This document shows positions 1,996 through 2,563 of a DNA stretch of 64,000 bases, one piece after another. This stretch comes from Planctomycetota bacterium (GTDB taxonomy: Bacteria > Planctomycetota > Phycisphaerae > Phycisphaerales > UBA5793). The translations under genes were made by a program, and so were the position numbers. Where the stretch lies: NCBI GenBank assembly GCA_963205185.1, contig CAUJHZ010000070.1:1-64000 (forward strand), given 5' to 3'. Position 1 is the stretch's first letter; each line of letters starts with the position of its first letter. The notes under the pieces are model-generated. The model saw only the letters and a program-made list of their open reading frames with translations. It made no database searches and was not told where the DNA came from.

Positions 1996-2319
1996 TTACT
2001 CTTCAACCGGCAGTCCCGCTTCCTGCCATGCATCGACCCCGCCCTTGAGGGCTTTGGTGTTCGTGTAGCCGCGATTGTGGTACTGTTCTGCCCGACCGGC
2101 AGAGGTGTGCTCCTCCTGTCACGCGCAGTAGAAGATGATCTCCTGGTCTTTGCGGATGGAGTCGGCCTGCGATTCGAAATCCTGCAGCGACATCGCCCCC
2201 TGCAGGTGGTTCTGCTCGAACTTTCCCGGCTCATCGTAAGCGCACACGAGCACAGCCGCGCCGGACTGCACATCCCGCCGCGCCTGATTGACATCGATCC
2301 GCTCTGCGTGGTATGCCAT
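1996..2319 (-). CDS. Rhodanese-like protein with a probable selenocysteine (in-frame TGA)
   Basis: ATG at 2319 follows AAGGAG at good spacing. Codons 1-66 give a rhodanese-fold N-terminal half ending EIIFYCA. Codon 67 is TGA (2121-2119). Reading on in the same frame gives QEEHTSAGRAEQYHNRGYTN, then a KGGVDAW segment, and a TAA at 1996, making a complete single-domain rhodanese of 107 residues. KGG-(V/I)-x-x-W is the standard rhodanese C-terminal motif, so the part after TGA is under coding constraint. Cys65 is the expected catalytic Cys. Relatives I recall have Cys two positions later (CACPNEATSA-type), where this gene has TGA, giving a Cys-x-Sec redox motif. A hairpin suited to a bacterial SECIS follows. 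Standard gene callers would truncate this gene. Alternatives are a nonsense mutation or a Cys codon misread. No sel genes are in the window. Confidence 0.8.
2087..2103 (-). promoter_or_regulatory. Candidate bacterial SECIS hairpin
   Basis: Fifteen nucleotides after the TGA, the mRNA can form a perfect 6-bp stem TCTGCC/GGCAGA closing a five-base loop GGTCG. The Escherichia coli fdhF SECIS loop is GGUCU, beginning 18 nt after its UGA; here the loop begins 21 nt after. The position, the loop G residues and the GGUC core fit SelB recognition. I did not fold the RNA computationally, and any lower stem is uncertain. Confidence 0.6.
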
Positions 2320-2563
2320 GATGATCTCCTTTCCGGGCCGCGAGGCAGCCTTTGCGCGGCTGGAAGAGAATTATGATGGATGCACGTGAATCAGCGATGA
2401 GTTGCATGTGAGATCGGCTTCACATCCGAGCAGTGAAGCAATTGTCTGCTCCACGGCGAAGGCACGAAGGCGTGGCCCGCCGGTCGCAGAGCCTCCCTCT
2501 GGACCACGGCACCCGCTTGGACTCCGCCAGGCATGTCGCGCTGGCCGCGCTGTTTGCCATTCG

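Follow-up and report, generated by a model that had tools for sequence, protein, structure and literature searches.

A Planctomycetota gene very probably encoding a single-domain rhodanese-fold selenoprotein

The locus and its reading frame

The window, which is the whole 64,000 nt stretch of DNA analysed here, contains on its reverse strand a reading frame that starts at the ATG at position 2319, runs for 66 codons to a TGA (2121-2119) and then continues through 40 sense codons, including those for the motif KGGVDAW, to a TAA. The earlier note had described this frame in the same terms, and the sequence confirms each of its parts; the features of the locus are collected in Table 1. The ribosome-binding sequence ahead of the start is strong (GGAAAGGAGATCATC-ATG). 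Gene calling with translation table 11 yields a 66 aa ORF (2119-2319), which is the shortened product that routine annotation had been expected to report. The rhodanese-like character claimed for the gene is borne out by a match to the Pfam family PF00581 (Rhodanese; 40 bits, cut-off 22.2), and this match belongs to the 107 aa read-through protein alone, as the 66 aa stump has no Pfam match. Elsewhere in the window, a tandem array of about 20 nt units (CGCCGGAGACTCTTATTCGT; 7 copies) occupies positions 213-379, upstream of an ORF at 712, and the start of another reading frame (MAKPLLDDELWNLIEPIIPVKPRRK...) lies at 1-76 on the reverse strand, where it resembles the N-terminus of an IS5-type transposase.

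Table 1. Features of the window gene, and loci at which a relative is followed by a thioredoxin-like gene.
Feature	Position	Strand	Details
Shine-Dalgarno-like AGGAG	2326..2330	-	6 nt upstream of ATG; from the sequence
Read-through gene, predicted rhodanese-like selenoprotein	1996..2319	-	107 aa, predicted Sec at codon 67, TAA at 1998-1996
Codon 26, Cys of LVCAY	2242..2244	-	No variation among the 58 Sec members aligned
Codon 65, Cys at the place of the rhodanese catalytic Cys	2125..2127	-	Sec (TGA) in six relatives
In-frame TGA, codon 67, very probably read as selenocysteine	2119..2121	-	From aligned loci and the same codon in the congener G003
Bacterial SECIS-like hairpin (predicted)	2087..2103	-	Stem TCTGCC/GGCAGA, loop GGTCG, loop start 22 nt after UGA
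Loci with a downstream thioredoxin-like gene			L048, L054, L056, L060, L064, L067, L115, L116, L123, L134, L142

Within its own genome, the read-through protein matches the window locus only. An orthologue in a congener (G003) is 81% identical and has its TGA at the same codon 67, its terminal stop being another TGA; in its upstream flank, the DUF5655 gene and the gene that follows are those seen in the window. Because this orthologue keeps both the frame and the TGA, chance is excluded as the source of the open frame. Downstream of the TGA, the two genes differ by 17 synonymous and 4 amino-acid-changing codons (dN = 0.058, dS = 1.37 and dN/dS of about 0.04 by NG86), as against dN = 0.14 and dS = 0.52 (NG86) upstream of it; purifying selection between the two genes is stronger after the TGA than before it. 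The gene is present in G000 and G003 and absent from G001, G002 and G004, that is, it occurs in two of the five genomes of the genus. All five have tRNA-Sec and SelB, which points to loss or transfer as the source of this patchy presence.

Selenocysteine machinery

The window genome (4.55 Mb in 76 contigs, 97% complete) carries on one other contig (C45) a compact set of selD, selB, selA and tRNA-Sec with anticodon UCA, where the encoded proteins score well above their cut-offs (SelB, 356 versus 242 bits; SelA, 524 versus 268 bits; SelD, 352 versus 125 bits). The selD gene (L047 9614-10642, reverse strand) is itself a selenoprotein gene with an in-frame TGA (CAGUAGK), and the hairpin downstream of that TGA is weak. 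Across 41 related genomes, a strong tRNA-Sec match and a SelB above its curated cut-off coincide in the same ten. A tRNA-Sec was counted here only at about 65 bits or more, because the family search at loose thresholds matches ordinary tRNAs in all genomes; the UCA anticodon was confirmed by ARAGORN at four of four loci tested.

Further, 24 genomes that carry a relative of the window gene were checked for tRNA-Sec, and 22 have a match above the Rfam cut-off. A clear tRNA-Sec was not found in G366 and G355, both TGA carriers with fragmented assemblies, nor in G185, a single contig with a CxC copy; the 48.7 bits of the G355 match do not exceed what an ordinary tRNA scores. A Cys copy can coexist with the machinery, since the other genomes with CxC copies retain tRNA-Sec.

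Homologues and the residues at positions 65 and 67

Searching the phylum and scanning GTDB genomes yielded 107 aligned loci, a few of which are duplicates from the two collections. Sec occupies position 67 in 96 of these loci, and Cys does so in 5; for positions 65 and 67 taken together, 90 loci have CxU, 6 UxU, 5 CxC, and 6 Cys followed by Arg or Ser at position 67, these last being distant rhodaneses. The earlier note had stated that Cys relatives carry Cys at codon 67, which the five CxC loci do. It had also counted two outcomes as arguments against its reading, namely a genome lacking selB or selC and an alignment that breaks at the TGA or shows residues other than Cys or Sec there; instead, tRNA-Sec(UCA), SelA, SelB and a Sec-containing SelD are all present, and the homologues align through the TGA, with Sec or Cys at that position in all but the six distant rhodaneses.

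Going by record titles, the carriers span at least seven phyla, including Planctomycetota (many of them Candidatus Brocadiaceae), Thermodesulfobacteriota (Geomonas, Desulfuromonas, Syntrophaceae and others), Nitrospirota, Synergistota, Acidobacteriota, Myxococcota and Poribacteria. Cultured carriers include Geomonas and Acetomicrobium hydrogeniformans. The genome scan used an alignment of six rows in place of a broad 17-row version, which was too diverse for this purpose. Because one of the scan's peptide patterns ends in FYC, the collection is biased towards Cys65 and UxU forms are undercounted. Searches of plasmid and PDB sequences returned distant rhodaneses only, and clustering of the neighbours of carrier loci revealed no partner common across phyla. 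At one locus (L070 in genome G102) lies a different rhodanese, with a canonical IDVR and a CxU motif in TYCTUPDE, which scores 105.5 bits against the curated model NF041203, slightly below its cut-off of 115.

A hairpin at a fixed distance from the UGA

In nearly all of the Sec genes, a stem-loop is found at one fixed distance, such that the loop begins 22 nt downstream of the UGA; the loop is mostly GGUCN and the stem usually has 5-8 bp. The stem in the window gene begins 16 nt downstream of the UGA. Three controls were applied to this hairpin, because the protein motif S/A-A-G-x-A could itself force such bases. When the same peptides were recoded synonymously, with weights from the codon usage of the hairpin region itself, the mean energy was -1.4 kcal/mol, compared with -8.9 kcal/mol for the observed sequences, and a median of 3.5% of the recodings folded as well as the observed ones. 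Moreover, nucleotides 18 and 30, each of which is the third base of a codon, pair as T-A in 49 genes, C-G in 28, T-G in 3 and C-A in none (Fisher p of about 1e-18, a value not corrected for relatedness), and their covariation persists among 65 representatives under 85% identity. In these representatives, the six-pair stem is 91.5% paired, versus 25-60% when slid by 1-4 nt, and the five Cys genes have 0-3 bp at the place of the hairpin.

The earlier note had called for a check of structure downstream of the TGA, and its outcome is divided: the conserved hairpin is there at 2103-2087, but the 56 nt after the window UGA, folded alone, do not form a significant structure (z of 0.6), and the hairpin is not their minimum free-energy fold. 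It becomes the winning fold only if folding is restricted to the local 27 nt. The signal for this predicted hairpin came from comparison and not from free energy. An Rfam search of the window found nothing.

UxU forms and a tandem thioredoxin-like gene

Six loci (L059, L063, L065, L072, L097 and L135) are UxU candidates with TGA-NNN-TGA at the active site, as in L097, which reads TAT TGA GCA TGA. In each, the second TGA is followed by the usual hairpin, whose loop starts 22 and 28 nt after the two UGAs; should these forms be genuine, a single hairpin would act for two UGAs six nucleotides apart. The six loci stand at separate places on the family tree, which is built on 99 columns and has little resolution, and they could still share a single origin. 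Four UxU carriers were checked for tRNA-Sec, which is strong in G119, G124 and G241 and was not seen at that strength in the fragmented G366.

In eleven Brocadiaceae-type loci (Table 1), the gene next downstream of the rhodanese is thioredoxin-like, and in six of the six loci translated it has a UxxC motif by way of an in-frame TGA (...LLDFFNPGUIGCQQMD...). This predicted tandem selenoprotein gene supports a redox setting for the rhodanese. No such TGA-containing thioredoxin-like partner was found in the window genome, and none adjoins the window gene.

Protein fold and proposed mechanism

An AlphaFold2 model computed with 58 family members reached a pLDDT of 92.6 (the first model, computed with no alignment, was poor), and its nearest fold is E. 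coli GlpE (Z of 16.4, rmsd of 2.2 over 103 residues). All 58 members match PF00581. With Sec written as Cys and the two counted together, the only invariant positions among them are C26, F63, Y64, 65, 67, G84, G94 and W98. According to profile alignments, whose register may be off by one residue, Cys26 belongs to the strand that bears the D-V-R motif in other rhodaneses. Thiosulfate sulfurtransferases have an active-site loop of the pattern C-x-x-G-x-R/K. The loop after Cys65 has no G-x-R/K pattern, which makes classical rhodanese activity doubtful.

From established bacterial Sec biology, SelB and Sec-tRNA-Sec would be held on the hairpin, and the UGA would be decoded in place of the action of release factor 2. 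In the protein, Cys65 would occupy the catalytic position of rhodaneses, where the central strand ends, with Sec67 two residues on, and the pair would cycle between the selenol/thiol and the selenenyl-sulfide; resolution would probably fall to Cys26, itself invariant, and to a thioredoxin-like protein. The protein would most likely serve to reduce persulfides, disulfides or peroxides and not to catalyse classical thiosulfate:cyanide sulfur transfer. On the strength of residue conservation, a redox mechanism through Cys65 and Sec67 is the reading that we moderately favour. A broader proposal, which we hold at about an even chance, is that these proteins form a distinct, mostly Sec-encoded subfamily with a Cys26/Cys65/Sec67 centre, in which the UxU forms may contain a diselenide and have one hairpin for two UGAs, and in which co-encoding with the UxxC protein in Brocadiaceae suggests a selenium-based electron relay.

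Alternative explanations

The TGA could be a true stop, leaving either a pseudogene or a 66 aa protein with a downstream frame that is open by chance, and this is indeed the product that standard gene calling delivers. Such a stop would leave a stump devoid of a domain match and would have to accommodate both the stronger purifying selection on the codons that follow it and the retention of the TGA at the same codon across about 90 loci, and we consider it highly improbable. Alternatively, the open frame across the TGA could reflect reassignment of TGA to a standard amino acid throughout the genome, or read-through by a near-cognate tRNA. However, TGA is the true stop codon used most often in the window, where it closes 19 of the 29 long ORFs that look coding, and it also terminates the G003 orthologue, so that general reassignment is very unlikely. 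Further, the residue that takes the place of Sec in close relatives is Cys, not Trp or Gly, the hairpin that accompanies the TGA at its fixed place is missing from the Cys genes, and the sel genes are present in the window genome; this explanation is as hard to credit as a true stop. The earlier note's proposal of Sec at codon 67 is the one on which the Sec machinery, the homologues, the conserved hairpin and the selection after the TGA all agree. Judged from the sequence evidence, selection favours the decoding of the codon 67 UGA as selenocysteine, and the window gene very probably encodes a single-domain rhodanese-fold selenoprotein. The invariance of Cys26, the UxU forms and the fixed hairpin are additions to what that note had claimed.

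Accepting selenocysteine at codon 67 leaves a choice between a redox enzyme and a sulfur- or selenium-transferase, in which a persulfide on Cys65 or a perselenide on Sec67 would be passed on, for example to SelD. The rhodanese fold, the sulfurtransferase GlpE as best structural match and the position of Cys65 at the catalytic place all suit a transferase, and rhodaneses can act as carriers of reactive selenium. Yet the protein falls far below the cut-offs of the GlpE, PspE and MoeZ models, its loop departs from C-x-x-G-x-R/K, and in the window genome the gene does not lie beside the sel genes. A transferase is possible and rather unlikely, and the redox role is preferred.

Implications

Since TGA is a real stop elsewhere in the genome and the curated CxU model misses the subfamily, standard annotation is expected to shorten this gene and its relatives. 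The family offers a clean natural test of what a SECIS element needs, as it combines a fixed spacing, synonymous covariation and hairpin-free Cys relatives, and its UxU forms raise the question of whether a single hairpin is enough for two UGAs so close together. It is also a defined target for studying the role of selenium in a rhodanese active site.

Comparison with known systems

Rhodanese-related selenoproteins had been reported before, as the earlier note stated. The GOS survey (PMC2398784) and an ISME J survey (PMC5029168) predicted bacterial ones ('sulfurtransferase homologous to a rhodanese-like protein'; COG0607), and the window subfamily may be among the sequences counted there under COG0607, the tables of both giving names and counts and no sequences. 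Both PMC9312934 ('COG0607 form 2, CxU') and PMC13188914 (form 3, NF041203) include CxU rhodaneses among the predicted selenoproteins.

The closest curated model is NF041203 (rhodanese_LYCAU), which shares with the window protein a single rhodanese domain and Cys-x-Sec at the catalytic place. Among curated models, it gives the window protein its best match (69.2 bits, below the cut-off of 115 bits), and it was matched by all ten family members scanned, for which the best E-value is the 2.4e-19 of the window protein. Because none of these ten reaches the cut-off, the window subfamily is, by this score test, a sister of NF041203; it differs in having Cys26 (LVCAY) at the D-V-R place and in including relatives with Sec at both active-site positions. 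The thiosulfate sulfurtransferase GlpE of E. coli (PDB 1gmx) shares the fold over the whole length, but it has no Sec and a different active-site loop, and the window protein scores 37.2 bits against its model NF001195 (cut-off 102). TsoB (NF045694), a rhodanese/DsbD fusion, is likewise a rhodanese-type selenoprotein with two Sec residues; these form a UxxxxU motif in a fusion protein some 570 residues long, in contrast to the CxU (UxU in relatives) of a stand-alone protein of about 107 aa, and the window protein scores 21.3 bits against a cut-off of 805. Among the papers searched, UxU rhodaneses are not mentioned, and those retrieved on diselenides do not, by title or abstract, concern such a protein. 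Overall, the CxU kind of rhodanese is already known as a predicted selenoprotein, and what may be new are the UxU relatives and the pairing of two selenoprotein genes in tandem.
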